The position numbers and the translations under genes were made by a program. This document shows, in pieces, positions 1 to 64,000 of a stretch of 64,000 bases of DNA. The DNA is from a virus. Position 1 is the stretch's first letter. Each line of letters opens with the position of its first letter. Under the pieces are notes generated by a model. That model had not been told where the DNA came from and ran no database searches. It saw only the letters and a list, made by a program, of their open reading frames with translations. The stretch covers positions 17,404-81,403 of the IMG/VR virus record IMGVR_UViG_3300032293_001310; one strand, written 5' to 3'.

Positions 1-2
1 GC

Positions 3-2806: not shown

Positions 2807-2838
2807 TTTACAACTTTTTATATAGGAGTTAAAAAACT

Positions 2839-5800
2839 ATGGCAATCGAACAAAATGGAAATTATAGCCCTTCAGAACGCATCGTTTCGCCTGGTGTATT
2901 CACCAGAGAAATAGATCAGTCGTTTCTTGCACAGGGTGTAGCAGCAATCGGCGGTGTGGTAGTCGCTCCGTTCCCAAAAGGACCGGGCTTTTCACCAACC
3001 GTGATCAATAGTGAAGGTGACTTAACTAGCATATTCGGTGATGCAGATGGTACGCTATACGGACCAATCACTGCACAGCAATATCTTCGTCAACAAGGAC
3101 AAGTAACAGTTGTTCGTGTTGGTGGTCTTTCCGGATACAACCAGAAACAGGGACTATTTGTCACCGCACTACCTGGTCAATATGCCAGATTCGTTGAAAC
3201 TGGTAGTGTATCTGGATCTTTGCTGGATTCTACACTATATCCAAATTCTTCGGTAGATCACGAATTTTATATCACGGGCAGCGTTAGTGTCACTTTTGAC
3301 AGTGGATACTATGAAGGAGAAACGATTGAAATTGGTACCTTGCAAGTAAAAACTTGGAAACGTACTTCCACTATGTTGTATGGAGCATCAACTGCATCCG
3401 GAGACTGCTTGGATACATTTGTTGCAACCGCTTCATTTGAAAATACTCCAATTACTATCATTGGTTCTGCTCCATGGAACGGTGTAAAAGTTCAACAACT
3501 CACGATACGTAGAGTACCAGGAGCATGCGACTTTGAATTGGAAATAGAAGCAATTCTTTCTGGTTCATACGGTCCATTCAATCCAAATGCATTTACTGCT
3601 GGCACAATATCCTCGGAAGATGGTTGCGGAAGCGCTTCAGCAATTCCTGCAAGAGACGAAGTTGTATTGGCGGTACTAGCAAATACAGCATACGACCGTG
3701 GCCAAAATCTATACGGATTTAGCGGATCGCTGTTGTATACATCATCCGCAGCGGCAGTTACTACGGATTTTTCTCTCGCGCTAAATACAATCTACACCGA
3801 TGGAAGTGGCAATACCGCAAGTTCGTCTTACGGTACATATCGTTTCTCGTTGGATGAAGAATCGAACAGTTACATCACCAATGTATTTGGTACCGATCCA
3901 AAGGCTGGATTCGTTCCAGTTGCTGCCGGTCAAAAGATTGAAGCGGCCTACACATACAAGAATTTCAAGAGCCGTACAAAAACGGTGATAAATGAAATGC
4001 TTGCGTCCGGTAGTTGGAAGATTGCAATTGCTACTCGCAACGCACTTGTGTTTGAAGACGGCATCGAACCAGCAGACGGTACTTCTACGTTCGATCTTAC
4101 GAACGCATACACACCGTTCATTCGCTCACAGTTGATCGCTCCTTTCACCGGAAGTGGAGTTTCTTCTAGTGCAGCATATGATCTGTTCAAGGTTCATACA
4201 CTAACAGACGGTACATCTGCAAATACCGCATATAAGGTTGAAATATCAAACGTTAAATCCGCAGGTTCTATACCGGGAAGTTCGTATGGGTCATTCACAT
4301 TGGCTGTTCGCAGTTATAGCGACACCGACCTGAAGCCTGTATATCTAGAACGCTTTGACAATCTAAGTTTGGATGTCAATAGCGCCAACTACATCGCTCG
4401 TCGTATCGGCGATACATACAACTATATTGACTTCAATGGTAAGATTCTGGAATTCGGAGACTTCCCACAAAAGAGTAAATATATCCGCGTCGAAATGGCT
4501 ACTGCTCCATGGCCAGTAGACTCAATCCCATACGGATTTGGTCCATATGCTGCACCAGTTGGTGGAGACTTTGCCCGTCTAGGTAAGGTCACTCCAATGC
4601 AATACTGTTCCGCGTCTGCATATTTGCTACAACCGGGCAGATATGCTTCTGGAATAGTATTCCAGCCAGCCCCTGCACAAGCCGATGATGAACTAAAGGC
4701 GCTGTATCCAAACGGCTCATCCGTTGGTCCAGAATTGGATAACAAGCAATATTTTGCTCCAATACCTCAAGGTTCTTCTGTGGGTAAGAATGTTGCGTTC
4801 GACTTGGAAACATATTGCGGAGTTTCTCCACTGTATGTCGCTTCTCAAGAAAACACAAACGTAAAGAAACGTCGCTTTGTGCTAGGATTCCAAGGCGGAT
4901 TCGATGGTCAATCTCCTTCTGTTCCATTGTTGATTGGTAATGATATATTACCAACAAATCAACAAGGACTAGATTGCGCGACATCGACAAGCCGTGGTAC
5001 ATATGCATACAGACAAGCAATCGCTGCTCTAAGTAATGCAGATGAGTTTGATTTCAACCTCATCACAACGCCTGGTGTAAATTATCAACATCACGCATAT
5101 ATATCATCAGCAATTGTTGATATGTGCGAACGCCGTGGCGATGCATTCTATATCATGGATGTTGCTCCAAACCAAAGTGCTGGTGCATCTTCCATACAGA
5201 ACGCAGTTGATCTCGCTGGTCAGTTTGACACAAACTACGCCGCGACATACTATCCTTGGGTCAAGGTAGTTGAAACAAACAGCAATAAGATTATGCCGGT
5301 TCCTCCTTCGGTCGTAATGATGAGCGTTTATGCAGCAAACGATAAGGTTGCAGCCGAATGGTTTGCTCCAGCAGGTCTAAACCGTGGTGGTATTCCAACC
5401 GCCGTATCTGTTGCTGACAGATTGACACATACTGAACGTGACACTCTATACGAAGGTCACGTAAACCCAATCGCCGCATTTCCTGGTCAAGGTGTTGTGG
5501 CTTGGGGTCAGAAGACGCTACAACGCAATCCAAGCGCATTGGATCGCGTAAATGTTCGCCGTCTATTGATTGCGTTGAAGAAGTTCATCGCTTCTTCTTC
5601 GAGATTCCTAGTATTCGAACAGAATGTAGCAACAACCCGTCAGCGCTTCCTGAATATCGTAAATCCATATTTGGAAAGCGTACAACAACGTTCTGGCGTA
5701 TATGCCTTCAAGGTTGTTATGGATGACAGCAACAATACACCTGATCTAGTTGATCGTGGTATATTGTATGGTCAAATCTATATTCAGCCAACACGTACCG

Positions 5801-5862
5801 CTGAAATGATTGTATTGGACTTCAATGTACTACCAACTGGTGCTGCATTTCCAGGAGCCTAA
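2839..5862 (+). CDS. tail sheath protein (T4 gp18-like), very large
   Basis: The contractile sheath subunit polymerises around the tail tube and shortens on infection. The N-terminus ERIVSPGVFTREIDQSFLAQG is the SPGVFxxExD signature of myovirus sheath proteins. The C-terminal part (FLVFEQNVATTRQRFLNIVNPYLE, then ILYGQIYIQPTRTAEMIVLDF) matches the conserved sheath core that makes the handshake contacts between subunits. At 1007 residues it is far longer than T4 gp18 (about 660). The extra sequence lies in the middle, about residues 120-560, rich in Ser/Gly/Thr and probably surface-exposed. It has a good ribosome site, its own upstream TATTTATA and a terminator on each side, so it is a single-gene transcription unit. 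Confidence 0.95.
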   Translation: MAIEQNGNYSPSERIVSPGVFTREIDQSFLAQGVAAIGGVVVAPFPKGPGFSPTVINSEGDLTSIFGDADGTLYGPITAQQYLRQQGQVTVVRVGGLSGYNQKQGLFVTALPGQYARFVETGSVSGSLLDSTLYPNSSVDHEFYITGSVSVTFDSGYYEGETIEIGTLQVKTWKRTSTMLYGASTASGDCLDTFVATASFENTPITIIGSAPWNGVKVQQLTIRRVPGACDFELEIEAILSGSYGPFNPNAFTAGTISSEDGCGSASAIPARDEVVLAVLANTAYDRGQNLYGFSGSLLYTSSAAAVTTDFSLALNTIYTDGSGNTASSSYGTYRFSLDEESNSYITNVFGTDPKAGFVPVAAGQKIEAAYTYKNFKSRTKTVINEMLASGSWKIAIATRNALVFEDGIEPADGTSTFDLTNAYTPFIRSQLIAPFTGSGVSSSAAYDLFKVHTLTDGTSANTAYKVEISNVKSAGSIPGSSYGSFTLAVRSYSDTDLKPVYLERFDNLSLDVNSANYIARRIGDTYNYIDFNGKILEFGDFPQKSKYIRVEMATAPWPVDSIPYGFGPYAAPVGGDFARLGKVTPMQYCSASAYLLQPGRYASGIVFQPAPAQADDELKALYPNGSSVGPELDNKQYFAPIPQGSSVGKNVAFDLETYCGVSPLYVASQENTNVKKRRFVLGFQGGFDGQSPSVPLLIGNDILPTNQQGLDCATSTSRGTYAYRQAIAALSNADEFDFNLITTPGVNYQHHAYISSAIVDMCERRGDAFYIMDVAPNQSAGASSIQNAVDLAGQFDTNYAATYYPWVKVVETNSNKIMPVPPSVVMMSVYAANDKVAAEWFAPAGLNRGGIPTAVSVADRLTHTERDTLYEGHVNPIAAFPGQGVVAWGQKTLQRNPSALDRVNVRRLLIALKKFIASSSRFLVFEQNVATTRQRFLNIVNPYLESVQQRSGVYAFKVVMDDSNNTPDLVDRGILYGQIYIQPTRTAEMIVLDFNVLPTGAAFPGA

Positions 5863-5881
5863 TATATAAAAAGTTAAAATC

Positions 5882-5909
5882 AAAAGCCCACCGAAAGGTG
5901 GGCTTTTTT
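5882..5909 (+). terminator. intrinsic terminator after tail sheath
   Basis: An 11-bp stem (AAAAGCCCACC at 5882-5892 with GGTGGGCTTTT at 5897-5907) closed by a GAAA tetraloop and followed by T residues. Confidence 0.9.
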
Positions 5910-5934
5910 ATTGCTATTTGATGAACATCTGCTA

Positions 5935-5942
5935 TATTTATA
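5935..5942 (+). promoter_or_regulatory. TATTTATA four bases before an ATG
   Basis: TATTTATA ends at 5942, exactly four bases before the ATG at 5947. There is no Shine-Dalgarno sequence between them. If the octamer acts as a late -10 element, transcription would begin at about the start codon, giving a leaderless message. Confidence 0.4.
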
Positions 5943-5946
5943 AAAT

Positions 5947-6510
5947 ATGCATATACTCCTAAAAACTCTATTAAAAGAAGTAGAAGAAAAGTCTCCCTTA
6001 AAATATCAAATGTATGTGGATATGGACGGAGTTCTTGTAAATCTTGATAAAGGGTTCAAGGCAGTTTCTGGTGGATTATCTCCAAAGGAATACGAAGATA
6101 AAAATGGTAAAAACACTTTTTGGAAAGTAGTAAATAAAAATCCCAACTTCTGGCTTGAGTTAGAACCATTACCAGATGCTAAAGTTTTGTGGGACTATAT
6201 AAAAGATACGTTTGAAGATCCTCCTGCGGTTGTGTTGAGTGCTGGACAAGGAAATAAAATAACAGAACAAAAAACTGCGTGGATACGTAAGCATATAGAT
6301 CCCAGTGTCAAAGTCATCATAGCAAAATCTGGCATTAAAAAATCGGAATATATTATTGACGGCGCGGGTACTAAACTTACTCATATACTACTTGATGATA
6401 CAGACAAGAATATAACTGCTTGGGAAAATTCCGGTGAAAATAGAATTGCTATTTTACATAAAGATGCGGCGAGCAGCATAAATAAGATTAAACAGATTGT
6501 GTCTGTATGA
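5947..6510 (+). CDS. HAD-superfamily phosphatase, 5'(3')-deoxyribonucleotidase-like
   Basis: The 187-residue protein has the HAD motif I as YVDMDGVLVNL (residues 22-32; D24 and D26 would be nucleophile and acid/base). It has a motif II-like VVLSAGQG and a late acidic motif ILLDDTDKNI. Phage proteins of this type resemble NT5C-like deoxyribonucleotidases and probably act in nucleotide turnover. Ahead of motif I is an extra amphipathic N-terminal segment MHILLKTLLKEVEEKS, similar to the N-terminal peptides of the 9-14 kb proteins. The start is supported by the TATTTATA placed four bases upstream. The stop overlaps the next gene by ATGA, so translation is coupled to the following two genes. Confidence 0.75.
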   Translation: MHILLKTLLKEVEEKSPLKYQMYVDMDGVLVNLDKGFKAVSGGLSPKEYEDKNGKNTFWKVVNKNPNFWLELEPLPDAKVLWDYIKDTFEDPPAVVLSAGQGNKITEQKTAWIRKHIDPSVKVIIAKSGIKKSEYIIDGAGTKLTHILLDDTDKNITAWENSGENRIAILHKDAASSINKIKQIVSV

Positions 6511-6755
6511 ATCACGTTTCGCTAAAATCTTTGCTGCTAAAAGAACAATTTCATGTATCCGACATGGTTATGCTTGAAAAGGCGTGCAAGGCTTTTGCAG
6601 ACGTATTAATAAAAAACAATATTGTAGCACATCATCATAAAGATCTTACAGCAGCAGATACTCCTATATCTCAATATTCAGAAGATATAGCAGAAGTTGT
6701 TCGCAATGAAGTAATCAAATGGATGGATGTAGCAAACGGACGAGGTGGCAGATGA
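6507..6755 (+). CDS. small helical protein, unknown
   Basis: An 82-residue protein coupled by ATGA overlaps to the HAD gene before it and the nucleotidyltransferase after it. It is mostly helical, opening with NHVSLKSLLLKEQF, a short amphipathic segment reminiscent of the peptides on the 9-14 kb proteins. It has a histidine cluster (AHHHKD, residues about 40-45). The family is not recognised. The tight three-gene arrangement suggests it works with one of its neighbours. Confidence 0.6.
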   Translation: MNHVSLKSLLLKEQFHVSDMVMLEKACKAFADVLIKNNIVAHHHKDLTAADTPISQYSEDIAEVVRNEVIKWMDVANGRGGR

Positions 6756-7660
6756 ATTATCCTTTATACAACGACAAACTTGCTCCTATATGGAACATCA
6801 ATGAAGATGGCGCGAGACTTGATGATGAAGTAAGAAAATCGCTCATCAAGATTGCGATGGATTTTGTGCAGGATCTAAAAAAGAACCAAGATATAAACAT
6901 CAAGATCGATGACATACTTCTTATTGGTTCTATCACCAATTATAATTGGACGCCATATTCAGATATTGATCTACATATATCAACCGATTTTTCCAAACTT
7001 GATATGAGCAAAGAAGATGCACAGGCTATGTTTGATGCGATTAAAACTGGTTGGAATAGCAAGCACGACATTGTGATGAAAAACTTTGATGTTGAGTTAT
7101 ATGTTGAAGATATAGGGGCAGAACAGGTGTCTGCATCGAAGTATAGCGTTCTAAGAAATGAATGGATAAAAGAACCAAAGAAAGAAAGTCCAAACTTCAA
7201 TAAGTCGCTTATAAAAAAGAAGTATAAAGAATACTCAAAGAAGATAGATGACTTGATGGATGCAGACAGCGAAAAGCCGCTAAAAGATTTACTCGAAAAG
7301 ATATACAAGTTTCGTCAAGCGGGATTAGATAAGGGCGGAGAACTAAGTGAAGAAAATATTGTATTCAAGATACTAAGAGCAAGGGGCAAGTTGGATAAAC
7401 TAAAAGACACTATATCAGCGATTTACGACGATAAGATGAGTGTCGATGAAATCGCCATGAACAATAGTTATTATGAGAAGGATGTTCAAGACGCGGCAGA
7501 TGATATATATGCGATTGCAAAAGCGTTAAAAGTATATCCAGATATTGAACCATATATCAAAAAGATATCATTAAAATACAAGAAGTATTCGGACGATGTG
7601 CATATAGACATCGCAAGGGCATTTTCAAAGCTTAGAAAACAACAAATAAAAACATCTTGA
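6752..7660 (+). CDS. nucleotidyltransferase-fold protein
   Basis: This 302-residue protein contains LLIGSITNYNWTPYSDIDLHI (about residues 55-75), the GSx(8-10)DxD catalytic pattern of the polymerase-beta nucleotidyltransferase superfamily. A further acidic residue that could complete the triad is in FDVELYVED. The start at 6752 is chosen over an in-frame ATG at 6719 because 6752 gives the usual ATGA overlap with the previous gene. The remainder is charged and helical with many Lys residues. Similar proteins occur in many phages without known substrate; transfer of a nucleotide to RNA, protein or a small molecule is possible. Confidence 0.7.
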   Translation: MNYPLYNDKLAPIWNINEDGARLDDEVRKSLIKIAMDFVQDLKKNQDINIKIDDILLIGSITNYNWTPYSDIDLHISTDFSKLDMSKEDAQAMFDAIKTGWNSKHDIVMKNFDVELYVEDIGAEQVSASKYSVLRNEWIKEPKKESPNFNKSLIKKKYKEYSKKIDDLMDADSEKPLKDLLEKIYKFRQAGLDKGGELSEENIVFKILRARGKLDKLKDTISAIYDDKMSVDEIAMNNSYYEKDVQDAADDIYAIAKALKVYPDIEPYIKKISLKYKKYSDDVHIDIARAFSKLRKQQIKTS

Positions 7661-7684
7661 CATAATATATCGGCGTGATAATAT
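7657..7684 (+). promoter_or_regulatory. sigma70-type promoter, leaderless geometry
   Basis: TTGACA (7657-7662), a 16-base spacer and TAATAT (7679-7684), followed by six bases and then the ATG at 7691. The predicted transcription start coincides with the start codon, and no ribosome site is present. Confidence 0.7.
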
Positions 7685-7690
7685 GTCGGT

Positions 7691-8380
7691 ATGCTAAAGA
7701 ATATTAAGTTTGCCCGGTTTGGCGGGCTTAGTTCAGTCAATCAAAAGGGATATGATTCGAACTGTGATGGCTATCATTCTCCTCCCGCCAAGCGTGGCTT
7801 TTATGCGTTTCTTTGGCCGCATTATGAGTTCTTTCTTCTCAGCGGTGGATTATGGACAAACTATCCTTGGTCAATAGGCACCAAGTTCAGTTACTTGAAA
7901 GACGCAAAGGGTAATATCATTGACGAAAATCATCCTGATCATGAATACTTTTCCAGCACAGGAAAGTATTGGAGCATTCCCACCAAAGAATGGTATTTTC
8001 ATCAGAAGAAACATCCTGAATATGAAGACCCCGAATATGATGCTAAGTTGGAGGCACATTGTATTGATTGGGAAACAAATCACGGAGATAAGCCCAAGTG
8101 GGTGTTGGTCCAAAAGCCTTCGCCCAGAATCTTTGAGTACAAAGGAAATATCTGGCATCATTTGACCTGCTATCTTGGACCTTCTGGTGCACTGAAGCAG
8201 AAAGGCGGTTGGACTCTTTCGCCGTTTGACGAATACGCAAAAGCATTACAAAAAAACATGCACGCTGGTCGCAGGACACAGTGCGAATACAGTTCCAAAA
8301 AAGGACTACCGAAGTCCAACAAAAATCCTTATGTGGGAATATCCAAGGATCATTTGGAAGTTTTTATTGAGAAAATTTGA
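7691..8380 (+). CDS. aromatic-rich protein of unknown function
   Basis: A 229-residue protein that I do not recognise. It is strikingly rich in Trp, Tyr, Phe, His and Pro (for example GFYAFLWPHYEFFLLSGGLW near residue 40), with a later conserved-looking segment FEYKGNIWHHLTCYLGPSG. It has no membrane segment or cysteine cluster. The gene follows a sigma70-type promoter whose -10 box ends six bases before the ATG, so it looks like an early-expressed gene sitting inside the late structural block. Its base composition is less AT-rich than its neighbours. Confidence 0.65.
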   Translation: MLKNIKFARFGGLSSVNQKGYDSNCDGYHSPPAKRGFYAFLWPHYEFFLLSGGLWTNYPWSIGTKFSYLKDAKGNIIDENHPDHEYFSSTGKYWSIPTKEWYFHQKKHPEYEDPEYDAKLEAHCIDWETNHGDKPKWVLVQKPSPRIFEYKGNIWHHLTCYLGPSGALKQKGGWTLSPFDEYAKALQKNMHAGRRTQCEYSSKKGLPKSNKNPYVGISKDHLEVFIEKI

Positions 8381-8400
8381 GTAGTTGGTGTATATTTATA

Positions 8401-8517
8401 ATGTATATAAAAAGTGAGCATTTGTTGGAATACCTTGTTAAAAAAAAGTACCAAAAAATGCAGCATTTTATATTTTGTGCTATATTTATAAATAGAAAAA
8501 GAACACTTAACCAATAA
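8401..8517 (+). CDS. possible 38-residue peptide
   Basis: An ATG directly abutting a TATTTATA (8393-8400) opens a short frame (MYIKSEHLLEYLVKKK...) that ends at 8517, just before the tail tube gene. The N-terminal half is amphipathic and plausible. The C-terminal half runs through another TATTTATA and is probably not coding-selected. There is no ribosome site. Low confidence. Confidence 0.25.
   Translation: MYIKSEHLLEYLVKKKYQKMQHFIFCAIFINRKRTLNQ
8483..8490 (+). promoter_or_regulatory. late-promoter-like element before tail tube
   Basis: TATTTATA at 8483-8490 continues as TATTTATAAATA, so it also contains the exact T4 late octamer TATAAATA at 8487-8494. The tail tube ATG is 33 bases downstream. 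This is the best late promoter candidate in the window. Confidence 0.55.
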
Positions 8518-8523
8518 AATACT

Positions 8524-9012
8524 ATGGCAGAACTACTAGACCAGAATCAAATATTTTTTACGGCCTTCGAGCCCAAGGTGCAGAACCGTTTCATCATGAA
8601 CATCGATGGAATTCCTGCATACCTGATCAAAGCCGCAGCACGTCCGAACATTAACGTCGGAACAATCACATTGGATCACATTAACTTGAAGCGTAAACTC
8701 AAGGGTAAGAGTGAATGGCAAGATATTTCAATTACATTGTACGACCCAATCGTTCCATCTGCTGCACAGGCTGCTATGGAATGGGTACGTCTTGCACACG
8801 AGTCTGTTACCGGTCGTAACGGCTATGCTGATATGTACAAGAAGGATATTCAAATTCAAGTTCTTGGTCCTGTTGGCGACGTTGTTGAAAAATGGGATAT
8901 CAAAGGTGCGTTTCCCAACTCAGTGAACTTCCAAACCATGGATTGGGCAAATGCAGAAGCAATGACAGTTGAAATAACACTGTCTATGGATTATTGCATC
9001 CTACAGTTCTAA
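8524..9012 (+). CDS. tail tube protein (T4 gp19-like)
   Basis: The 162-residue length and sequence match the T4 gp19 tail tube family. Examples are KVQNRFIMNIDGIPAYLIKAAARP near the N-terminus, ITLDHINLKRKLKGKSEW in the middle, and the closing section VNFQTMDWANAEAMTVEITLSMDYCIL. Hexameric rings of this protein stack to form the inner tube through which DNA passes, inside the sheath encoded at 2839. It has its own late-type promoter and a terminator directly downstream, consistent with high, independent expression. Confidence 0.93.
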   Translation: MAELLDQNQIFFTAFEPKVQNRFIMNIDGIPAYLIKAAARPNINVGTITLDHINLKRKLKGKSEWQDISITLYDPIVPSAAQAAMEWVRLAHESVTGRNGYADMYKKDIQIQVLGPVGDVVEKWDIKGAFPNSVNFQTMDWANAEAMTVEITLSMDYCILQF

Positions 9013-9037
9013 TATTATTATTATAGTGTTCTGTATT

Positions 9038-9068
9038 AAACCCTCACCATAAAAAGTGGGGGTTTTTT
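9038..9068 (+). terminator. intrinsic terminator after tail tube
   Basis: AAACCCTCAC (9038-9047) pairs with GTGGGGGTTT across an A-rich loop, with one imperfect position, and is followed by a T run. Confidence 0.75.
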
Positions 9069-9076
9069 ATTTTATC

Positions 9077-9105
9077 TTGACAAGTTTTCGTCTACCCCCT
9101 ATAAC
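9077..9105 (+). promoter_or_regulatory. sigma70-type promoter in intergenic gap
   Basis: TTGACA (9077-9082), 17-base spacer, TATAAC (9100-9105). The transcript would start near 9112 and read into a hairpin (CAACTATA / TATAGTTG around 9129-9161), then the tagged gene at 9187. Confidence 0.5.
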
Positions 9106-9162
9106 CCCGGGTATTACCTGAGTGAAACACAACTATATCATACTTTTTTATAGTATAGTTGA

Positions 9163-9170
9163 TATTTATA
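9163..9170 (+). promoter_or_regulatory. late-promoter-like TATTTATA
   Basis: The octamer lies 16 bases before the ATG at 9187, at the head of the 9-14 kb block of tagged proteins. Confidence 0.4.
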
Positions 9171-9186
9171 TATACTTAAAAATATT

Positions 9187-9867
9187 ATGAATAAATCAGA
9201 ACTAAAATCTATCATACGTGAAGTAGTTGAGGCAGTAATGAAAGACGACTTTGCTCCATTGGGCGTAGCACAGGAATGGAGATTGGATGAAGCCGGCCCT
9301 CCGGGATTTCCAAAAAAATTAAGAAAGCAGTTGATTACAAAGTATAAAAAGAAATATCCGAATGATGAAAAGCGTGCGATGAAGGCAGCATTTGGTACAA
9401 TGTGGAAGATCTTTTATGCCAAGAAAAAAGGAAACAAAAAAGTAAACGAAATGTGGGAAGCGTGTGAACGTCAAGAGATTGCGGAAATTTCTTTGACAGA
9501 AAATAATATCAACGAAGCCATACCAGACGAAGATCCAAATGATCCATTGTATGTTGAGTATCTAAGTGATAGACAGGGCGAAGACCCGTTTATGATGAAC
9601 GGAACTAAGTGGCAATATGTTAATGCAAAATATCCAAATGGCAAAAAAGATCTTGGTGTGTATTCCTTCGCCGAAGATATGGTTTATGGATACAACGCTT
9701 TTAGAACCAAATTTAATTTAAAAGAAGAAAAAAATGTTAAGGCAAAAAAGCAAGAGCATCCGCACGATGAAACGGACATGAGTAACCCAGAAGAAAAACG
9801 TGAAGTTGAGTTGGCAAAAAAAGCAAGAGATGCATCTGAAGAAATCTTAAAAATGCACGGAAAATAA
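9187..9867 (+). CDS. tagged late protein, putative capsid-internal protein
   Basis: A 226-residue, charged protein whose first residues (MNKSELKSIIREVVEAV) belong to the peptide shared by several genes in this window. The body has a basic stretch FPKKLRKQLITKYKKKYPNDEKRAMKAAFG (residues about 40-70) that looks like a small helical nucleic-acid-binding module, then an aromatic section TKWQYVNAKYPNGKKDL and a Lys/Glu-rich helical tail. The peptide contains potential prohead-protease sites of the T4 type (hydrophobic-x-Glu, for example IRE and VVE). I infer packaging into the head; no enzymatic motif is seen. The stop overlaps the next start by one base. Confidence 0.7.
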   Translation: MNKSELKSIIREVVEAVMKDDFAPLGVAQEWRLDEAGPPGFPKKLRKQLITKYKKKYPNDEKRAMKAAFGTMWKIFYAKKKGNKKVNEMWEACERQEIAEISLTENNINEAIPDEDPNDPLYVEYLSDRQGEDPFMMNGTKWQYVNAKYPNGKKDLGVYSFAEDMVYGYNAFRTKFNLKEEKNVKAKKQEHPHDETDMSNPEEKREVELAKKARDASEEILKMHGK

Positions 9868-10430
9868 TGAATAAGTCTACACTCAAAGAAGTAATTCAAA
9901 ATGTGGTTGCTCATAAACTGGCGGAAACCAACGGTGATGCGTCAAAGTATGGATATATTATTTCCGGAAAAGACACCAACGATCCGCACCTTCAGTTAAT
10001 AGGTTATGGTAATATGCCAAAAAGTTATTGGCAAAAAAAACTTGACGGATACGCCGACGAGTTGAAGAAGAGAATTAAAGCCGAAGACTGGAATGCGGCG
10101 GTATACTTTATGAAGCAAAGTAGTGTATTCAATCTCGCAGTCAATATGATGAACGAAATATACGAAAAAGATCTTAATGAACTTGATACCACACTCGATT
10201 CATCTGCTGCTGAAACTGGATTGACTGACGCGGATAAAAAAGAACTAGAGAATCTAAAATCTCAGAGTGACAAACTAACTGCTAATATTAAAAAAATAGA
10301 AGGCGATATGGCTAAATTGCAACAAACCATTCAGCCAAAGATACAACGGGCAGAACGTGCAAAAGCAAAATTACAAAAGCAACAGTCCGATGTTATTCGT
10401 AAGCAGCAGTCCATACAAGACAGGGCTTGA
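9867..10430 (+). CDS. tagged coiled-coil late protein
   Basis: 187 residues starting with the shared type of peptide (MNKSTLKEVIQNVVAHKLAE). A central globular section follows (YGYIISGKDTNDPHLQLIGYG, then AVYFMKQSSVFNLAVNMMNEIY). The last 70 residues form a long coiled coil (ELENLKSQSDKLTANIKKIE and onward) ending in a Lys/Gln-rich helix. The start overlaps the previous stop by one base (TAATG), so the two are translationally coupled. The family is not recognised. A virion-internal or scaffold-like role is inferred from the peptide and neighbours. Confidence 0.65.
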   Translation: MNKSTLKEVIQNVVAHKLAETNGDASKYGYIISGKDTNDPHLQLIGYGNMPKSYWQKKLDGYADELKKRIKAEDWNAAVYFMKQSSVFNLAVNMMNEIYEKDLNELDTTLDSSAAETGLTDADKKELENLKSQSDKLTANIKKIEGDMAKLQQTIQPKIQRAERAKAKLQKQQSDVIRKQQSIQDRA

Positions 10431-10436
10431 TATGTT

Positions 10437-12221
10437 ATGGACAATATCGAGAAACAACTTCTGGAACTCGAAGAAAACCTACATAAATGGTTCAAGGAGA
10501 AATGGGTAAGATTCGGACCAGATGGTAAGATACGTGGTCAATGTGCCAGAGAAAAATCAAGCGAAGGTAAGCCAAAATGTCGTCCACTAAAGTCTGCACA
10601 AGCGATGGGAAAGAAAGGTAGAGCAACTGCTGCACGCAGAAAGAGACGTGAAGACCCAAATCCAGATCGTAGCGGCAAAGCAAAAAATGTAAAAACCGAG
10701 GCTGATAAGATGGATGAACTAAAGTGCTGGAAGGGATACTCACGAGTACGTGGTGTGCCTGCTGGTGCACCAGGTAGTTGTAAAAAGAAAACAGAGGAAT
10801 CTATAACAGAATCTTCCAATTTCTCTATTGAACAACTGGCAACCATTAGCGATGAAGCACTGGATCAAGCATATGGATATGGTCGCAGCACGACGGGTAA
10901 TACTTTTGGTTGGCAGGCTAATGTAATGTCTGCAACATATGCTAAAGAAGTAATTGATATGGGCGTCACTGACATCGAAAAAATTGCGAATGCTATTCAC
11001 AAAGGATGGAATGTCACGGCAAAAAAGTTTGTTGAAAATCCGGATCAATTTGATGATACTGAAAAACTACGCCAGTCTGGTAAACTGGATAATAAGATAC
11101 AACAAAGAAAAAAATTGATGAATATTGATTACAACCAACTAAGCGATGCCGAAAAAGAAAAGGATCGTGTTGTAGCTCGTGCTTTGTTGCAATCGTTGAA
11201 AAAAGAATTGAGCGAATCTATAACACCAGAAACCATACATAAACTTGCAGACGACTTAGGTATTGAGTGGGACAACGAGCCAAGCTTTCTTGAACTTACA
11301 AAAGAGTTGACGGGTAAAGAACACTTGGACGATTTAAATCAAGCAGAGTTGATGAAAGTTAAAAACCATTTAGAAAAACAAAATATAGCAGAAACAGAGG
11401 AATTTACTATGGATAATGTAAATGAAAATCATATGTGCCCTATTTGTGGTGGAGAACTTGTGTCAGAACTATTGATGAACGAAAAGAAAGATGCTTGTTA
11501 TTATAAAGTTAAATCGCGCTATAAAGTGTGGCCAAGTGCATATGCTTCTGGTGCATTGGTAAAATGCCGTAAAAAAGGAGCAAAGAACTGGGGAACCAAG
11601 TCAGAAGGCGTTGAAGAACTTGATGAAAAATGGAGTGAAAAATATAAGCGTAGCATTGATTGTAGCCAGCCAAAAGGATTCAGTCAAAAAGCACATTGCC
11701 AAGGAAGAAAAAAGAACGAGGAAACACTTATGAAAGAAGAACAACTAAAGAATATAATCAGAGAAATGGTAGATGAACTGTATAAAGAACAGACCCAGAT
11801 GCAGGATGAATGTTGGGAATGTTATGAAGCCGCAATGCAGGAAGGTACCGATGAAGTTTGGGAAGAATGTTATCGCAAGACAAATTGGAACATGGTACCA
11901 GAAGGTGAAGAACACACCTGCGAAGGTGACACATTTTATGAAGTATACGGGGACCAGAGGTATGAAGCCGATGTAATTGAAGAAGCAGAATATCGTGGTC
12001 GTAAAGTAAAACTCGGAAAGCCAATGAGAGGCGATGTCAAGAAGTTTAAAGTGTATGTTAGAAAACCAAACGGTAAAGTTGTAAAAGTCAATTTCGGTGA
12101 CAAGAAGATGCGCATTAAGAAGAGTAATCCGAAACGCCGCAAGAGTTTTAGAGCAAGGCATAATTGTAAAAATCCTGGCCCAAGATGGAAAGCACGTTAT
12201 TGGAGTTGCAGAAAGTGGTAA
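10437..12221 (+). CDS. 594-residue mosaic protein of Cys/Lys-rich modules
   Basis: This is a string of small modules joined by acidic linkers. Residues 18-85 are a basic segment with WVRFGPDGKIRGQCAR. Residues 94-117 are a short Cys module (KCWKGYSRV...PGSC). About 185-258 is a RyR-domain-like section (DYNQLSDAEKEKDR). About 265-312 is a small helical module. 332-388 combines CPICGG with YYKVKSRYKVWPSAYASG. 399-426 is a Cys module (KYKRSIDCSQPKGFSQKAHC). 432-452 is an internal copy of the shared peptide (MKEEQLKNIIREMVDEL). 530-594 is a very basic C-terminus (RRKSFRARHNC...YWSCRKW). Similar modules occur separately in other phage proteins. It may be a packaged polyprotein or nucleoid-like protein; this is inference. 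Confidence 0.75.
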   Translation: MDNIEKQLLELEENLHKWFKEKWVRFGPDGKIRGQCAREKSSEGKPKCRPLKSAQAMGKKGRATAARRKRREDPNPDRSGKAKNVKTEADKMDELKCWKGYSRVRGVPAGAPGSCKKKTEESITESSNFSIEQLATISDEALDQAYGYGRSTTGNTFGWQANVMSATYAKEVIDMGVTDIEKIANAIHKGWNVTAKKFVENPDQFDDTEKLRQSGKLDNKIQQRKKLMNIDYNQLSDAEKEKDRVVARALLQSLKKELSESITPETIHKLADDLGIEWDNEPSFLELTKELTGKEHLDDLNQAELMKVKNHLEKQNIAETEEFTMDNVNENHMCPICGGELVSELLMNEKKDACYYKVKSRYKVWPSAYASGALVKCRKKGAKNWGTKSEGVEELDEKWSEKYKRSIDCSQPKGFSQKAHCQGRKKNEETLMKEEQLKNIIREMVDELYKEQTQMQDECWECYEAAMQEGTDEVWEECYRKTNWNMVPEGEEHTCEGDTFYEVYGDQRYEADVIEEAEYRGRKVKLGKPMRGDVKKFKVYVRKPNGKVVKVNFGDKKMRIKKSNPKRRKSFRARHNCKNPGPRWKARYWSCRKW

Positions 12222-12239
12222 AAATTAGATACTGTTAAT

Positions 12240-13424
12240 ATGAAAAAAACCGAACTAAAACAATTAATAAAAGAAGCGGTCGTCAAAGTATTGTACGAAC
12301 AAACGCTACCGCCCGGTATAAGTCCCGATGCCGTGATGACTTTGGATCAGTTTATTAAAGGGTCGATTGAAGAAGCAGAAGGAGATTTTCTTGGTGCAAG
12401 AACCAGACCCATTTCTCCAGAAGAAATGCAGGCGTATCTAGATCGCGTTAAGAGAAAAGAAAAAACCGCAGGCGACAAATATAATCTTCCATATATCCAC
12501 GGAAGTAACATAAAAATAAAAAACGAAGAAGGAAAAACTTACGACCAAGAGAGGTTGAAGGATGCCATAAAAACTCGTCCATCACAAATATTAAAACAGA
12601 ATGCCAAGATGGCAAAGAGTTCAGGTCCAAACACTGTGTTTTTTGATATCGGGTTGCCAGCATTAAAGGGGTTGGCAGTAAATGAAAAAACCAACGAGTT
12701 TATAGTCGTTGACACATGTCCGGGCGCAGGACAGTGTAAAATATATTGTTATGCAATGAAAGGTGGATATGTTCAGTGGAAAAGCGTATCGTTATCACAA
12801 ACTCGACTATTGAACTTTCTAATTAACGATCCTCAAGGATTTAAATCTCAATTTCAATCCGAATTGGAGTCTAAAGCAAATTCTGCATTAAAACGCGGTA
12901 AAAAAGTGTTAGTGAGATGGCACGATGCTGGAGACTTCTTTAGTCCACAGTATTTGAACATGGCATTTGATATTGCCCGCAGTTTTCCCGAAATTGAATT
13001 TTATGCTTACACAAAAATGGCAGATGTTGCTCAGAGCGATAAACCTGCAAATTTTAAGATGAATTTTTCTATGGGGGCAAAACCCGAACAAGAAAAGCAG
13101 ATAGATTTTGATAAGACCAAACATTCTACGGTGATACCAAAACCGATGTTTGACAAATATATTTCAAAAAATGAAAAAGGAAAAGCGGTCAGAGACAAAA
13201 AAGGAAGAATGCAATTTAAAGACGACGACGAACTAAATTCTTTTAAGCAAGATTTGGCCGCAAAGTATAGAGTACCAGTTGATAGTATTCTTACATATGA
13301 CGAGATGCTAGATACACCAGAATCCGATGAGCAGAACAAGTACAACGTAATCGTTCGTCCCGGCGATGGAGATGTAAGTGCAAGTCGCGGAGATGTTAAG
13401 GGAACATATTTATTAATCCACTAA
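12240..13424 (+). CDS. GP88-like protein with N-terminal tag
   Basis: 394 residues. The N-terminus MKKTELKQLIKEAVVKVLYE is the shared peptide. Residues about 135-300 carry the features of the phage Gp88 domain: a cysteine cluster TCPGAGQCKIYCYAMKGG (Cys at about 160, 166 and 170), then RWHDAGDFFSPQYLNMAFDIA and EFYAYTKM. The three closely spaced cysteines could hold a metal or an iron-sulfur cluster. The biochemical role of the family is not established as far as I know. The position inside the tagged block suggests co-expression late and perhaps delivery with the virion. Confidence 0.7.
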   Translation: MKKTELKQLIKEAVVKVLYEQTLPPGISPDAVMTLDQFIKGSIEEAEGDFLGARTRPISPEEMQAYLDRVKRKEKTAGDKYNLPYIHGSNIKIKNEEGKTYDQERLKDAIKTRPSQILKQNAKMAKSSGPNTVFFDIGLPALKGLAVNEKTNEFIVVDTCPGAGQCKIYCYAMKGGYVQWKSVSLSQTRLLNFLINDPQGFKSQFQSELESKANSALKRGKKVLVRWHDAGDFFSPQYLNMAFDIARSFPEIEFYAYTKMADVAQSDKPANFKMNFSMGAKPEQEKQIDFDKTKHSTVIPKPMFDKYISKNEKGKAVRDKKGRMQFKDDDELNSFKQDLAAKYRVPVDSILTYDEMLDTPESDEQNKYNVIVRPGDGDVSASRGDVKGTYLLIH

Positions 13425-13430
13425 ATTATT

Positions 13431-14075
13431 ATGAAAAAATCAGAACTAAAAACATTAATAAAAACCATAGTCGTAGAGGCTATTTCAGTAAAAGATGAAC
13501 TTAGACGCAAGTCCGCAGATGAAAGTTTAAACAAGACGCCATCGAAGATGAACGTAAAAGAAGAAATCTTGAAAATGATTCGTGAAGAAATTCACGAGAT
13601 GTCACGTACTGCCGGTTCTATCGGTAATAAATTTAAAGTACAAGATCCAAATTCTCCAACTGGATGGGTAGCCAGTGGCCACCCAAAAACACCAGATGGA
13701 ACGCCAGTACCACCGCCGGGTAAAGCCGCTGGCATCAGCGGTTCCAAACCGACGGGCACCCCCGATTCAGACGAAGACGAAGGAGATGACGAGGATTCTG
13801 GACCAGTCGCCCCAGTCCAAGCAAACTCAAAGGTGTCTATTGTCGTTGATGGAGATGAACTTCCCGCCAAGTTGGATATGAATAAAGTAAAAGGCCCGAT
13901 AATGGGCTATCTGAAGTCTGTTCTTAGCGGGTCAAACATAATTATGTACAAAGCCCACCCGTCCGTACAAGAAAAACTAGATCAATTGAGCGATCTATAT
14001 ACTGACGATAAGTTACCTCTTGATGCAAAATTGCAACTTTCTATACAGAAAGACGGCACTATATCTGCAATTTGA
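13431..14075 (+). CDS. tagged protein with two copies of the shared peptide
   Basis: 214 residues. It begins MKKSELKTLIKTIVVEAIS and has a second similar segment at about residues 40-58 (MNVKEEILKMIREEIHEM), as if two tagged starts had fused. A disordered Pro/Gly/Asp-rich middle follows (TPDGTPVPPPGKAAG, then an acidic DSDEDEGDDEDSG). The compact C-terminal domain begins VSIVVDGDELPAKLDMNKV and ends LQLSIQKDGTISAI. It is the last gene before a strong terminator. The function is unknown. The double peptide is the clearest sign that the tag is a mobile, separable module. Confidence 0.7.
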   Translation: MKKSELKTLIKTIVVEAISVKDELRRKSADESLNKTPSKMNVKEEILKMIREEIHEMSRTAGSIGNKFKVQDPNSPTGWVASGHPKTPDGTPVPPPGKAAGISGSKPTGTPDSDEDEGDDEDSGPVAPVQANSKVSIVVDGDELPAKLDMNKVKGPIMGYLKSVLSGSNIIMYKAHPSVQEKLDQLSDLYTDDKLPLDAKLQLSIQKDGTISAI

Positions 14076-14098
14076 TATAAGGGTAAACTCGCTTGCTC

Positions 14099-14129
14099 GT
14101 TCTGCCGCTTTTTAGCGGCAGAACTTTTT
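14099..14129 (+). terminator. strong intrinsic terminator closing the tagged-protein block
   Basis: A perfect 11-bp stem (GTTCTGCCGCT at 14099-14109 with AGCGGCAGAAC at 14114-14124), a TTTT loop and a TTTTT tail. Confidence 0.92.
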
Positions 14130-14188
14130 ATATATACAAAAAACTATTTTTAGTTCATATATATGAATAAACAAAAGTTATACTAAAT

Positions 14189-15034
14189 ATGGATAATACA
14201 ATACCAGTTACAAAGCAGAATACATTGACGACATCGTTGGTACAGCCCGCCGAATCTACTAAGCAATCGGCACCAACTATAACAGTAAAACTACCAACAA
14301 AAGGTTATTTTTATCCCACAAATCATCCATTGTCGAGCGGTACAATTGAACTATATCATGTCACTGCTAAACACGAAGACATTCTTAGTAACAGCAATCT
14401 TCTAAAGAAAGGAACAGTATTGGATGAATTTTTGAAAGCGTTGATTGCTACACCAGGCGTTGCATTAAACGATATTTTTATTGGAGACAAAAACGCATTG
14501 TTCATAGAGTCGAGAAAAAATGCATACGGTGAAACATATACCACAAAAATAAAGTGTCCGGAGTGCGGCGAAGAATCTAACGTTGATATAGATATTTCCG
14601 CTGTGGGATCAAGGGCGTTTCCATTTGAAAACTATGTTCGCGGAGAAAATAAGTTTACATTCTTGCTTCCATCGTCGAAAAAGACAGTAACGTGGGGATT
14701 GTTAACGCACAAGGATGAAAGTGATATAGATCAGGAATTAAAAGCACTTGCTAAATTGGGAACCAGCACATCCGCACCAGAAGTTACCACCCGACTGAAA
14801 TATACAATAAAGGCGATAGACGGCGAAACGGACCGCGCAAAGATCAAGAATTTTATTGATACACAAATGGTTGCAAAAGATAGTTTGGCATTCAGGCGTC
14901 ACGTTAGAGAAACCACTCCGGATTTAGATATGATGTTTGACTTTAATTGTCCAAAATGTGGGCACACTCAAAAGATGCCGATTCCTTTGGGAGCAAACTT
15001 TTTCTGGCCAAACTTGACTGACAGAGATATGTGA
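14189..15034 (+). CDS. T4 gp26-like baseplate protein, paralog 1
   Basis: The 281-residue protein has VKLPTKGYFYPTNHPLSSGTIEL, followed by a KHEDILSNSNLL segment. Together these are the N-terminal signature of the T4 baseplate (gp26, T4_baseplate) family that helps build the central hub beside the tape measure. Two CxxC pairs (IKCPECGEES and FNCPKCGHTQ) form a likely zinc ribbon. It overlaps the next gene by four bases (GTGA) and that gene is a clear paralog. The location directly ahead of the tape measure fits a hub-assembly role. Confidence 0.75.
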   Translation: MDNTIPVTKQNTLTTSLVQPAESTKQSAPTITVKLPTKGYFYPTNHPLSSGTIELYHVTAKHEDILSNSNLLKKGTVLDEFLKALIATPGVALNDIFIGDKNALFIESRKNAYGETYTTKIKCPECGEESNVDIDISAVGSRAFPFENYVRGENKFTFLLPSSKKTVTWGLLTHKDESDIDQELKALAKLGTSTSAPEVTTRLKYTIKAIDGETDRAKIKNFIDTQMVAKDSLAFRRHVRETTPDLDMMFDFNCPKCGHTQKMPIPLGANFFWPNLTDRDM

Positions 15035-15945
15035 AATTAAATTCGGAAATAATAGATTTAGCATCCGAAGGATATTTTTACCCAGAAGACAATCCACTGT
15101 CGTCTGGTAAATTGGGAATATTTCCAATAACCGCTGAATACGAAGAACTGTTAAGTAATTCGAACCTAATTAAACGAAATTTACTTGATCGGCATTTTTT
15201 GACCCACATCGTTGACGGTACATTAGACTACGACAGTTTATTAAATTGTGATCGTGAATCGATATTATTGAATCTTAGAATTGCCAACTATGGTGCTGCA
15301 ACAAAGATAAAAGTAAGATGTGAAGAGTGTGAGGCGGATCCTGAGTTTGATATATCCTTTGCTTTCAAGTCGAAACCGTTTGATTTTTCTAAACACACGC
15401 GAGGAAAAAATAAACTAGAATATAAGTTTAAAAAAACTAATAAAACTTTGTATTTTAAACTTCCTACCGTCAACGAACAGCGGGTATACGTTGAACAAGG
15501 ATGGTTGAATTTTCTTAAGCGTATAACTTTGGAAATTGATGGCGTTGACGATATATCAAGTTTTTATGAGTATCATCTACCTGCAAGTGATAGTAGAGCA
15601 TTTAGAGTATACTACGAAAACAACACACCGGGATACCAAAACACCGTATCAACTCAATGCCCGTCGTGCAAGAATGTAAAGAATTCAAAATTGGAAATAA
15701 ACGAGGACATTTTCGGTATATCGCCCGAAAGCAAGATGCTTATACACGGCGAAATATTTGACTTGTGTTATTATAGTAACGGTGCATTTACACAAGAAGG
15801 TGTATATAAAATGCCCACAAGTTTACGAAGTTTTTATATAAAAAAGTTGGTTGAGGCAAAAAAGGCGGAAAAAGAAGCAAATGAAGCCGCCGCAAAGGGG
15901 TCTGGAACGGGTAAAATAGCACGCCCACCTACAGTAAAAAGATAA
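15031..15945 (+). CDS. T4 gp26-like baseplate protein, paralog 2
   Basis: 304 residues beginning at a GTG that overlaps the upstream stop. LASEGYFYPEDNPLSSGKLGI and YEELLSNSNLIKRN align with the same positions of the preceding protein, as do two CxxC pairs (VRCEECEAD and TQCPSCKNV). Homology between the two is visible by eye although they are diverged. It has an extra C-terminal Lys/Ala-rich helix (KKLVEAKKAEKEANEAAAKG). The GTG start and tight overlap imply translation coupled to paralog 1, perhaps giving a defined ratio of the two baseplate proteins. Confidence 0.72.
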   Translation: MKLNSEIIDLASEGYFYPEDNPLSSGKLGIFPITAEYEELLSNSNLIKRNLLDRHFLTHIVDGTLDYDSLLNCDRESILLNLRIANYGAATKIKVRCEECEADPEFDISFAFKSKPFDFSKHTRGKNKLEYKFKKTNKTLYFKLPTVNEQRVYVEQGWLNFLKRITLEIDGVDDISSFYEYHLPASDSRAFRVYYENNTPGYQNTVSTQCPSCKNVKNSKLEINEDIFGISPESKMLIHGEIFDLCYYSNGAFTQEGVYKMPTSLRSFYIKKLVEAKKAEKEANEAAAKGSGTGKIARPPTVKR

Positions 15946-15955
15946 GTTCGGGATA

Positions 15956-15963
15956 TATTTATA
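15956..15963 (+). promoter_or_regulatory. late-promoter-like TATTTATA before tape measure
   Basis: The octamer is 23 bases upstream of the ATG at 15987 and sits in the only gap between the gp26-like pair and the tape measure gene. Confidence 0.4.
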
Positions 15964-15986
15964 ATATAACCTGATATATAATAGAC

Positions 15987-18900
15987 ATGACTGAACAAGA
16001 GAGAAAAAAAATGTTTGAGGACTTTGAAGATTTTAACGAATCTAGGAAAAAGTCCGAAGAGGATTATTATTCTCGATTGGAAGATACATTAAATATTTCA
16101 AAACAAATAAACGATCAATATAGAAACCAGCAACGTAATATTGGCCAAATCAATAGTGATATTTCAAAAACGCTAACAAAAATACAGGCACAGAAAGTGG
16201 CCATAGAAAAAAATCGAGAAGCATATAAAAAAGTCAATACTGAGATAGTGCAAGTTGATCAAACTCTACAAGGATTAGACTCTTTGCGTATACAAAGTTT
16301 GCGAATAATTCAAGAAACTACACAAAAGATCAATCAAAGTGTTGTTGTTCAAAAAGATGCCACCGAAAGAATTATAAAACTTAAACAAGAAGAACAGCGA
16401 ACTACGGAAGAAATTGCCAATTTGGAGAAATCGTCTTTAAAAAATAAAGCCGCGCAAGAAATAAACACCAAAGCATTACTTGCTCACAGGAAAGAGCAAA
16501 GACGAGTAGAAGAACAATTACAAGGCGTTGAAGCGGCAATTGTAGAAAAACAAAAAATGGGAATAACGAGCGGAGATGAATATAATAAATTACTGCTCAG
16601 GCGAGACGCTATTGTAACACGCGCAGTAAATATGCGAGTCGAAGAAGCAAAGTTGATGGATGACGGACAAAAATATGCAAAAAGAGAAAGTAATATACAA
16701 CAAGAGATACTAAATAAAAGGCAAAGAGTTAAAGACATTGGGGATGCGATAACAGAAAGTGAAGAAAGATTTGCTGCGGCTGGGTTAGTCATAGACGCAG
16801 CAATGAAAGCGCGTGAAAAGGCGCAAAAAAATGAGGCAGAAATATCGGAGGCTATAAATAAGAAACAAGCACAGCGCAATGCTTTGATCGAAAGGCAGAA
16901 GGTACTCCAAGACCAACATACAACATTGACGAATGCTTTAAAAAAATCAGAAGAATATTTAAATAAACTATACGATCTCAGAACAAAGTATATAGCACGA
17001 TTGAATTTCTGGAAACTTATTAAGATGGCATATGACCGATTTGTTGAACTAGACAAGGCGGCAGAAGAATTCAGAAAATCTACCGGATTTACGAATACTC
17101 AAATGGTAGAGTTGAGAAAAAACGTTGAACAAGTTAATCGTGAATTTGCGGACATGGGCGTAACAATACAAGAAGCATATAAATCCGCAGAACAACTTGT
17201 AAATGTATTTGAGAGAACGTCGATGGTTTCAAAAGAGGCAGTGCAAAACGTATCACTACTTGCACAAAATTTTGGAGTAGCACAGGAAGTTTCTGCACAA
17301 GTGCTGGAAACTTTTATGGGAATTGGTAAGTCTTCGGAACAGGCGGCGTTTGATACCATGAAACTCGGTGCTGCACTATCCGAAAAAACGGGAGTCTCTT
17401 TTGCAAAGGTAATGAAAGACATTTCAAGTGCCAGCGAAACTACAATCAACATGATTGGGGCTTCGCCAGCAAAATTAATGAAAGCGGCAATTGCTGCCAG
17501 AGCACTGGGGTTGGATATAAACAAGATCGCTTCGTCTCAAAGAAAACTTTTAGATTTTAGTTCTAGCATAAATGACGAACTTCAATTGAGTGCATTGTTA
17601 GGAAAAAGTATATCTTTCCAAAAAGCGCGTCAACTGGCGTATGAAGGTAAGACGGACGAAGCGTTAAAATCTACACTGGAAACTGTTAAGGCGGCAGGAG
17701 ATTTTGAAAAAATGAACGTATACCAGCGCGAACAACTCGCAAAAGCGGCTGGTATGGAACTCAAAGACTTGTCAAAAGCACTGGCAGTAGAAAAGCGCCG
17801 CGAAGAAATATTATATGGTTCAGATGAAGTCGCTAGAAGTAAGTTGCTTGCACAAGAAGAAGAGTTGAAAAAAATGAAAGAAATGACGGAGGCAGACGAA
17901 AAAGATCTCATCCGTCAAAATGAAAAACTTTTAGCACAGCAAAAAATGCAAGGAGTCATGACAAAGTTGACGAACATCATGAATTCTATGAGCATTGCGT
18001 TTGCGGATATATTTGAACCAGTAATATCTGCACTTGCTGACACAATAGTTCCGTTGTTTAAAGCAATTGTTGCGATACTTAAAGTAACTATAATACCGTT
18101 GTTTAAATTAATGGCGTATCCGTTACAGGTTGTAGGAGGTATAATTTCCGATCTTACTAAAAAATTTCAAGAATTTATGGAGGGACCAGAGTCTACCAAT
18201 AAATCTATAGTTTCTATAAAAGAAAGTTTTAAAAGTCTTTTTGAAAAGGTCAGTGAATTCTTTGATACAACCTTTGGAAAGGTAACGAAATTTATCGCTG
18301 GTGGCAGTCTGTTATATATGTATTTGATGGGGAAATTTTCTATGGGAGGGATATTGGGGTTGATAAAAAAACCATTCGATATGCTTGGGTCACTTGCTTC
18401 AAAAGGTATGTCAAAAATTCCAGTGATTGGAAAAATGTTTCAACCCCCATCTTCAGTCGGTGCAACGGGGGCCGCTGCCCAACAAACCGCGCAGGCATCA
18501 AAAGCGACCCAAGGAGTAAAAAGTGGAACTGGCGTAAAAGACTTTTTAAAGAATTTAGCATCTGGATTAAAAAGTATGGGAAATGCCAGAGTTTTACTCG
18601 GAGCAATTAATTTAATACCCGCATCAATTGGACTTGTGGCAATGATACCGGGTATATTAGGTGCTAAATTGTTAGAACTTATAAATGGAGAAAAATTAAA
18701 AGATGGCTTAAGTGGATTGGCCGCAGGGTTAAAGAAAATGGGAAATGCCAGTGTATTGTTGGGTGCAATAAATTTGTCATTGGCGGCTGTTGGTTTAGTA
18801 GCAATAATACCCGGCGCAATCGCAGCAGCAACAATGTCTTTGATTGGTAAACCGATAGAAATTGGACTAAAATTTCTAGCACAAGGAATTGGTCACATGG

Positions 18901-35417: not shown

Positions 35418-36125
35418 ATGAATCGTGAACTTCTAAAAAAAGCCATCAAAAAGTTAGTATTACAAGAAATCACCAACAATCAGTTTGGTACACCTATTCA
35501 TTCAGATAAGAAGGATTTGACTGGCGAAAAAGCACTGACCAATGCAATGGGCAAGGACGCCAACGTAATGAAAATTCGTGGCACAGGAAAAACCGCAGGA
35601 GTGAAGGGGAATCAAGAAGTTCAACTAAGCAAAAACTGCGATCATTGCTATGATGTAGTATCTGTCACCAACGAGTCAGAAAGAAAGATTGCCCGTGGTA
35701 TTTCGCTTGAAGCGGCAATGGAACTTGTAAAGCAGCACGCCGAAAGTTCAGACAAGACATATGTTCAAAGAGCATATGACAAGAGCCTCAAAGGATTCGG
35801 CAAGAAGCCAGCCAAAAAAGAAGAAGCCAATGAAGCCGACAAAATGGACGATGCCGACGAAGAAACGCAACTTGATATTGCCGATGATACTACTGAAAAG
35901 GCGGACGTTAAAGCGGACAAAGACACTTCTCCTATCAATAAAGACATTGCTCCTGCTCTCGGTGGAAATATTGTTGACAAGATTGAAAGGATTGTAGATA
36001 AGGTATTAAAAGATAAAGCAGACGCCAAGTCGGCATATCTAAAACGAGACAAAAGTACAGAGAGCCCAGACAAACTATCTGTAAAACTAAAAGACACTCC
36101 TGCTCTAAAAGAAAAAAAACCATAA
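35418..36125 (+). CDS. tagged, highly charged late protein
   Basis: 235 residues. MNRELLKKAIKKLVLQEITN is a further example of the shared N-terminal peptide. The middle holds NCDHCYDVVSVTNESERKI (a CxxC pair) and a helix. From about residue 130 the sequence is a Lys/Asp/Glu-rich, probably disordered region with AYDKSLKGFGKKP and IVDKIERIVDKVLKDKADA. No enzymatic motif is seen. It is far from the 9-14 kb block but carries the same tag and a late-type element upstream, which supports a shared destination. Confidence 0.6.
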   Translation: MNRELLKKAIKKLVLQEITNNQFGTPIHSDKKDLTGEKALTNAMGKDANVMKIRGTGKTAGVKGNQEVQLSKNCDHCYDVVSVTNESERKIARGISLEAAMELVKQHAESSDKTYVQRAYDKSLKGFGKKPAKKEEANEADKMDDADEETQLDIADDTTEKADVKADKDTSPINKDIAPALGGNIVDKIERIVDKVLKDKADAKSAYLKRDKSTESPDKLSVKLKDTPALKEKKP

Positions 36126-63799: not shown

Positions 63800-64000
63800 A
63801 TGAATAAAACTGAATTTAAGAGTCTTATAGAAGAATGCATTAGAGAAGTAAACGAAGAAAGAGATATAGTATATCTCACAGACAATGAAGTGGCTTTCAT
63901 ATTGAAAGAGAGTTATGTTCCAGCCAAACGCGACAGATTGTTGCAAGAAGGAAAGAAAAAAATGTCATACGCAGAAGCAGAAGCCATGCTTCGTGAAGAA
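63800..64000 (+). CDS. tagged protein, N-terminal part (3' end outside window)
   Basis: The frame is open to the window edge (67 codons). MNKTEFKSLIEECIREVNEE is the shared N-terminal peptide. The visible rest (IVYLTDNEVAFILKESYVP, then KKKMSYAEAEAMLREE) is helical and charged. It shows that the tag also occurs beyond the 9-14 kb block. Confidence 0.6.
   Translation, partial: MNKTEFKSLIEECIREVNEERDIVYLTDNEVAFILKESYVPAKRDRLLQEGKKKMSYAEAEAMLREE

Follow-up and report, generated by a model that had tools for sequence, protein, structure and literature searches.

In phage T4, the protease gp21 cuts after L/I-x-E, and the internal proteins bear N-terminal propeptides of 10–19 residues (PMC9026906). 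An Asp at the cleavage position of IPIII blocks processing and still allows targeting (PMC9026906). In the Synechococcus phage S-CREM2, virion mass spectrometry detected six non-structural or unknown proteins with a MKxFxxFLxE-like start (PMC10665884, Table 3), a motif that the paper does not discuss (PMC10665884). The carriers are gp6 (SAM hydrolase), gp14 (APH-like kinase), gp154 (cytidylyltransferase), gp13 (start MKDLHSFLTE, detected in virions by one peptide only), gp136 (start MQTFSMFFSE) and the Cas9 gp12, in which the motif is offset behind a short extension to about residues 18–25 (within LRFASFMAEA at about residues 17–26; OR473000, 7704–10313). The motif is present in 6 of 24 detected non-structural or unknown proteins and in 0 of 68 undetected ones (p = 2e-4, with the motif defined after inspection). 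This shows that unrelated virion-borne passengers of the T4-like S-CREM2 share one start resembling a capsid-targeting sequence (CTS); its sequence differs from that of the peptide described below.

The DNA analyzed here (the window) is a 64,000-base stretch corresponding to positions 17404–81403 of an 81,403-base virus record, which is itself a fragment. The window contains T4-like tail genes, including those for the sheath (at 2839) and a gp19-like tube protein (at 8524), and also a ribonucleotide reductase gene and an RIIA-like one. Its tail sheath is closest, among isolates, to that of Microcystis phage Mel-JY01 (38% identical), and a sister contig, G092, belongs to the window's lineage, with the same gene order and close homologues. 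The 81-kb record, window included, was searched for a capsid gene and a prohead protease (Peptidase_S77), and neither was found. Genes were called mechanically from open reading frames, and most of the records compared are fragments. Upstream of the window (G000 1-17400, L003), about a dozen successive LamG/concanavalin-like genes with alike starts (GLVLYLDAANxKSYPGSGTxWxDLS) come after a collagen-like GSSGTTG repeat protein; they probably form an array of tail-fibre or receptor-binding variants. These paralogues, which lie upstream of the window, swamped a similarity test of gene starts, and an independent profile was used in its place.

The peptide under study has the 20-residue consensus MKKSELKQIIKEEIxKVLNE. 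A DNA search pattern that fixed residues 1–12 only matched more than 119 viral stretches, and among the matches listed 125 of 131 in-frame matches lay within 30 codons of an upstream stop. Residues 13–20 (E/C-I-x-E-V-L-N-E) were conserved though outside the search pattern, and information content, 1.42 bits at residue 20, was down to 0.43 by residue 21 (86 tags). [LI]-x-E ended at residue 20 in 42 of the 86 tags (49%) and at residue 16 in 22%, against a background of 1.2% per position in the bodies. Across all fetched loci, 174 non-redundant tagged bodies were collected, few with a known family. A tagged protein at L211:9177-10040 matched AAA_33/zeta-toxin-like kinases and is a candidate packaged effector. 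The string MKKSELK had no occurrence in the literature that could be searched, and the long-form tag is not described there; tblastn of the bare 20-residue peptide against phage records found none, the query being too short to be informative.

The tags used to build a position-specific matrix (PSSM), 86 in non-redundant form, came from other viral contigs, with the window left out to avoid circularity. A scan of 67 window genes gave 18,785 positions of 20 residues, and seven sites outscored all others once frames overlapping them were disregarded: in descending order, 12240, 9187, 63800, 13431, 10437-internal, 13431-internal and 9867. The first-pass annotation had proposed a common start pattern in six genes; five of these (9187, 9867, 12240, 13431 and 63800) carry it, and the sixth, at 35418 (MNRELLKKAIKKLVLQEITN, 35418..35477, + strand), fell into the background at about rank 21, its N-terminus being conserved together with its body in L225 and L148. 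The gene at 52755 was also rejected as tagged, since it starts MNKSEL yet lies outside the top PSSM matches. The first-pass annotation had further read the peptide as a capsid-targeting, packaging signal, and independent lines of evidence support that interpretation, the examples 35418 and 26458 excepted: the latter had been offered as a T4 look-alike ending ISEAS, an ending that its L225 relative does not keep. The favored reading, to which we give a probability of about 0.8, is that the peptide is a capsid-targeting sequence of the T4 kind, long, new in form and particular to its lineage, which would load prohead-core and cargo proteins.

The tags and cargoes described next, with their coordinates, lie on the + strand. 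The 9187 protein begins with the tag MNKSELKSIIREVVEAVMKD (9187..9246; PSSM rank 2), which has IRE at residues 10–12 and is kept in the orthologues from L009, L354 and L360. Its cargo (9247..9864), described by blastp, consists of an FPKKL domain and a PLYVEY domain, the second of which stands alone behind a tag in L106; no Pfam or PHROG match was obtained for this cargo. One search with the 9187 protein gave no relatives, and the orthologues came from other comparisons. The 9867 protein begins with MNKSTLKEVIQNVVAHKLAE, ending LAE at E20 (9867..9926), and its relatives end the tag KMGE, RLNE and KLSE at the matching place; comparison of relatives divides the cargo (9927..10427) into a SKYGYI domain and a coiled-coil tail. 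The gene at 10437 encodes a lysine-rich, Cys-containing protein (PHROG 727; whole-protein pI 8.9) without an N-terminal tag (10437..11729), followed by an internal tag at residues 432–451 (MKEEQLKNIIREMVDELYKE, 11730..11789; rank 5) and a fused C-terminal cargo (11790..12218). S-CREM2 gp137, suspected from gene order to be a relative of the 10437 protein, showed no similarity to it by blastp, and its detection in virions was left out for this reason. Small basic Cys domains (KKDACYxKVKSRYxVWPSAYASGALVKCRKxGAxNWGxKSE) are common to window 10437-12221, syn9 gp114, P-SSM2_123 and S-SM1_115, the cyanophage copies lying in genes near gp16.

The highest-scoring tag, MKKTELKQLIKEAVVKVLYE (12240..12299; rank 1), ends LYE at E20, also has an IxE step at residue 12, and precedes a GP88 cargo (12300..13421; PF17338) that matched its profile with 114.9 bits over residues 118–329 (curated cut-off 24.4). 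The 13431 protein carries a tag at its start (MKKSELKTLIKTIVVEAISV, 13431..13490; rank 4) and a second, internal one at residues 40–59 (MNVKEEILKMIREEIHEMSR, 13548..13607; rank 6), followed by an acidic cargo that matches no known family (13608..14072). The internal copies that had been reported in this protein and in 10437 are thus both borne out. The tag MNKTEFKSLIEECIREVNEE (63800..63859; rank 3) has IRE at residues 14–16 and opens a gene that runs off the window end; its protein weakly matched a tagged core-region protein in L124. Two further starts with an LLxE step, absent from the first-pass list, are candidate short T4-like targeting peptides: MHILLKTLLKE on a 5'-deoxyribonucleotidase-like protein (5947..5979; PHROG 2643), whose orthologues retain the step as LLQE and LLTE, and MNHVSLKSLLLKE (6507..6545), with LLKE/LLSE kept in L008 and L010. 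In Mel-JY01 (L005:10276-11105), two adjacent genes start with the near-identical, T4-like MIKLKSLLxEIISDRVWHLTT; the body resembles ADP-ribosyltransferase-type signatures by eye, and Pfam gave no match.

The bodies behind the peptide had been called unrelated, and this was upheld: the best cross-match of tag-trimmed bodies covered 26 residues (E = 0.02). In L354, the SKYGYI part of the 9867 relative is absent just after residue 20, and the tag joins the coiled-coil tail directly. The internal tag of 10437 aligns with residue 1 of a stand-alone relative (L115:803-1321); the part behind it forms a tagged gene of its own in L115 and L148, and in L206 and L019 it follows other starts; the residue-432 copy therefore marks a gene fusion. 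Tandem tags also occur in L119 and L190. These comparisons show that a tag can be separated from its cargo, since one and the same cargo is found behind different tags.

GP88 offers a wider view of this place in the protein, with 459 relatives in viral contigs. The three nearest bear the window-type peptide, and others start at the same alignment place with MKFIDLLTE, MDIRNILNIITE, MKTFKQHLSE, MALREFRYFIKE and others. Among 39 diverse members, 31 had [LI]-x-E within residues 6–25, compared with 22% of random viral gene starts (p = 2e-13) and 5.6% of internal GP88 segments. The S77 protease was present in every GP88 record tested that exceeded 65 kb. An AlphaFold model of the 12240 protein placed residues 3–22 in a lone helix of modest confidence, followed by a poorly predicted stretch and a folded body. 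A PDB fold identity for GP88 was sought and rejected, as nothing scored below E = 0.07 and the first matches, which included Fe-S and TIM-barrel enzymes, were too weak.

Tags were associated with head genes. Of 27 records with a tag, 19 had Peptidase_S77, as against 7 of 28 random viral records of roughly matched length (p = 8e-4), and in 11 of the 19 the nearest tag lay no more than 2 kb from the protease, compared with 1.8 expected under a uniform-placement null that ignores gene clustering. The interval from portal to capsid in G029 holds seven genes that scored as tagged and one more whose start is short and T4-like. As the 81-kb record is without both genes, the protease and capsid link for the window rests on G092, where the protease and a gp23-like gene for the capsid are both present. 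From its portal-side genes to the protease, G092 encodes KSELKQLIREVIEEVMEQQ and KDAKQLIRELVEEVLEE followed by TGTGAVAGYMTPAAF, which is related to one of the tagged core proteins of G029; these N-termini are approximate because many frames are broken. Several contigs have, close to the prohead protease or adjoining it, a member of a tagged family (EEGVLSGIITEVAQGL-like, about 130 residues long; L218:10731-11117, similar in L089, L092, L114 and L144) that is a candidate prohead-core protein.

The arrangement of these genes bears on an alternative in which the peptide marks prohead-core or scaffold proteins only, which would be digested or expelled at maturation and not be delivered as cargo. 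The tagged genes of G029 and G092 are placed between the portal, protease and scaffold genes, where T4 has genes 67, 68, 21 and 22, and a conserved tagged family (TG..AGYxTPxAF) stands just before the protease, as does its Mel-JY01 relative. However, some tagged bodies resemble folded enzymes or passengers (GP88, an AAA/zeta-toxin-like kinase and, weakly, an ART-like protein), bodies turn over among close relatives, and the S-CREM2 passengers with an analogous motif persist in finished virions. We consider a role limited to the core unlikely.

If the peptide were instead a docking helix, left uncleaved and used in assembling the tail or baseplate, this would account for the position of the tagged genes at 9187–14075 among tail genes, between the gp19-like tube gene (8524) and a hub-like gene (14189). 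In most other protease-bearing records, however, the tagged genes are near the protease; GP88 lies near capsid genes in L013, L015 and L031, and the drop in conservation at [LI]xE agrees with a protease site. Such a helix is accordingly very improbable.

The PSSM scored above 0 at none of 1,053 gene starts and at 5 of 232,299 internal positions in random viral contigs, a control set drawn with a single arbitrary 16-base pattern. The DNA pattern matched six times in 257 Gb of bacterial and archaeal genomes, mostly on phage-like contigs: two matches came from contigs of a single MAG bin that had additional tags close by, two from contigs of another bin, one fell inside a long ORF and one in a Tenacibaculum contig. 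Set against the more than 119 viral stretches, these counts mark the peptide as virus-specific. A common helix N-cap, a chance resemblance or a mobile DNA-level cassette is contradicted by these controls and extremely improbable: some tags do have identical DNA, and the starts of 9187 and 52755 have 20 bases in common, but a permuted-order codon control of the same pattern gave 0 matches, the cellular and random viral counts are as above, and synonymous codons vary, the tag serine (residue 4) being encoded by both TCN and AGY, so that it is the protein that is conserved and not the DNA.

To return to a capsid-targeting sequence, the comparisons establish, at the level of sequence, a shared peptide that is specific to viruses, its [LI]-x-E boundary, its linkage to the genes for protease and capsid, and modularity of tag and cargo. 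Against it stand the 13431 start tag, in which a strict [LI]xE is absent, the Asp at residue 20 of the 9187 tag, where the corresponding Asp of T4 IPIII stopped processing though not targeting, and the position of the tagged window genes amid tail genes. For the window phage we infer prohead entry, cleavage and ejection into the host. The 20-residue amphipathic helix would take freshly synthesized proteins into the prohead core as it grows, and there a gp21-type protease (Peptidase_S77) would cut after [LI]-x-E, usually at residue 20 and perhaps also at 12 or 16, leaving the body within the head beside the DNA. Since core proteins and passengers would both use the peptide, any gene that gains it would become cargo. 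Internal copies would arise by the fusing of once separate tagged genes, as the stand-alone relatives show for 10437, and the protease may split tagged fusions into individual products. The case for prohead loading is stronger than that for cleavage or ejection; cleavage of the peptide in this phage is probable, and ejection of the cargo into the host is somewhat favored. More broadly, many uncultured phages of the T4 superfamily may well share a 20-residue code for capsid loading that is portable and differs in form from lineage to lineage, borne by core proteins and more than 100 kinds of cargo and sometimes repeated in fused cargo that the protease may cut.

The proteins that phages carry into their hosts are mostly unknown outside a few models. 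A recognizable loading peptide turns the discovery of packaged proteins into a sequence search, and the tagged bodies form a list of candidate anti-defence and take-over proteins. If the reading is true, a phage's packaged, and probably injected, protein set could be read from sequence alone. The peptide is also a possible protein-delivery tag and offers a test of the joint evolution of core, protease and cargo signal.

Among known systems, the T4 CTS of IPI-III and Alt, processed by gp21, is alike in being a short N-terminal peptide on unrelated proteins with an [LI]-x-E end, in the occurrence of a T4-type capsid and an S77 protease alongside the tag in other viral records, among them the sister contig G092, and in the acquisition of diverse cargo (PMC9026906, PMC3012670). 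It differs in length (10–19 residues vs 20 in the window tag), and the window tag also occurs in internal and tandem copies and is shared by core and cargo. The likeness to T4 lies in the pattern and the [LI]xE end, and sequence homology is not claimed. Packaged head proteins of SPN3US and phiKZ-like phages are likewise cut by a phage prohead protease (PMC5694885, PMC10052503), in a giant-phage system with its own protease, gp245. In phage P1, a different system, DarB has an N-terminal packaging signal, and its first 30 residues are enough to direct a reporter to the capsid interior (PMC9024508). The MKxFxxFLxE motif of S-CREM2, like the window tag, is one motif on unrelated passengers of one genome with an [LI]xE end; it is shorter and closer to the T4 peptide, and its proteins have been found in virions (PMC10665884).
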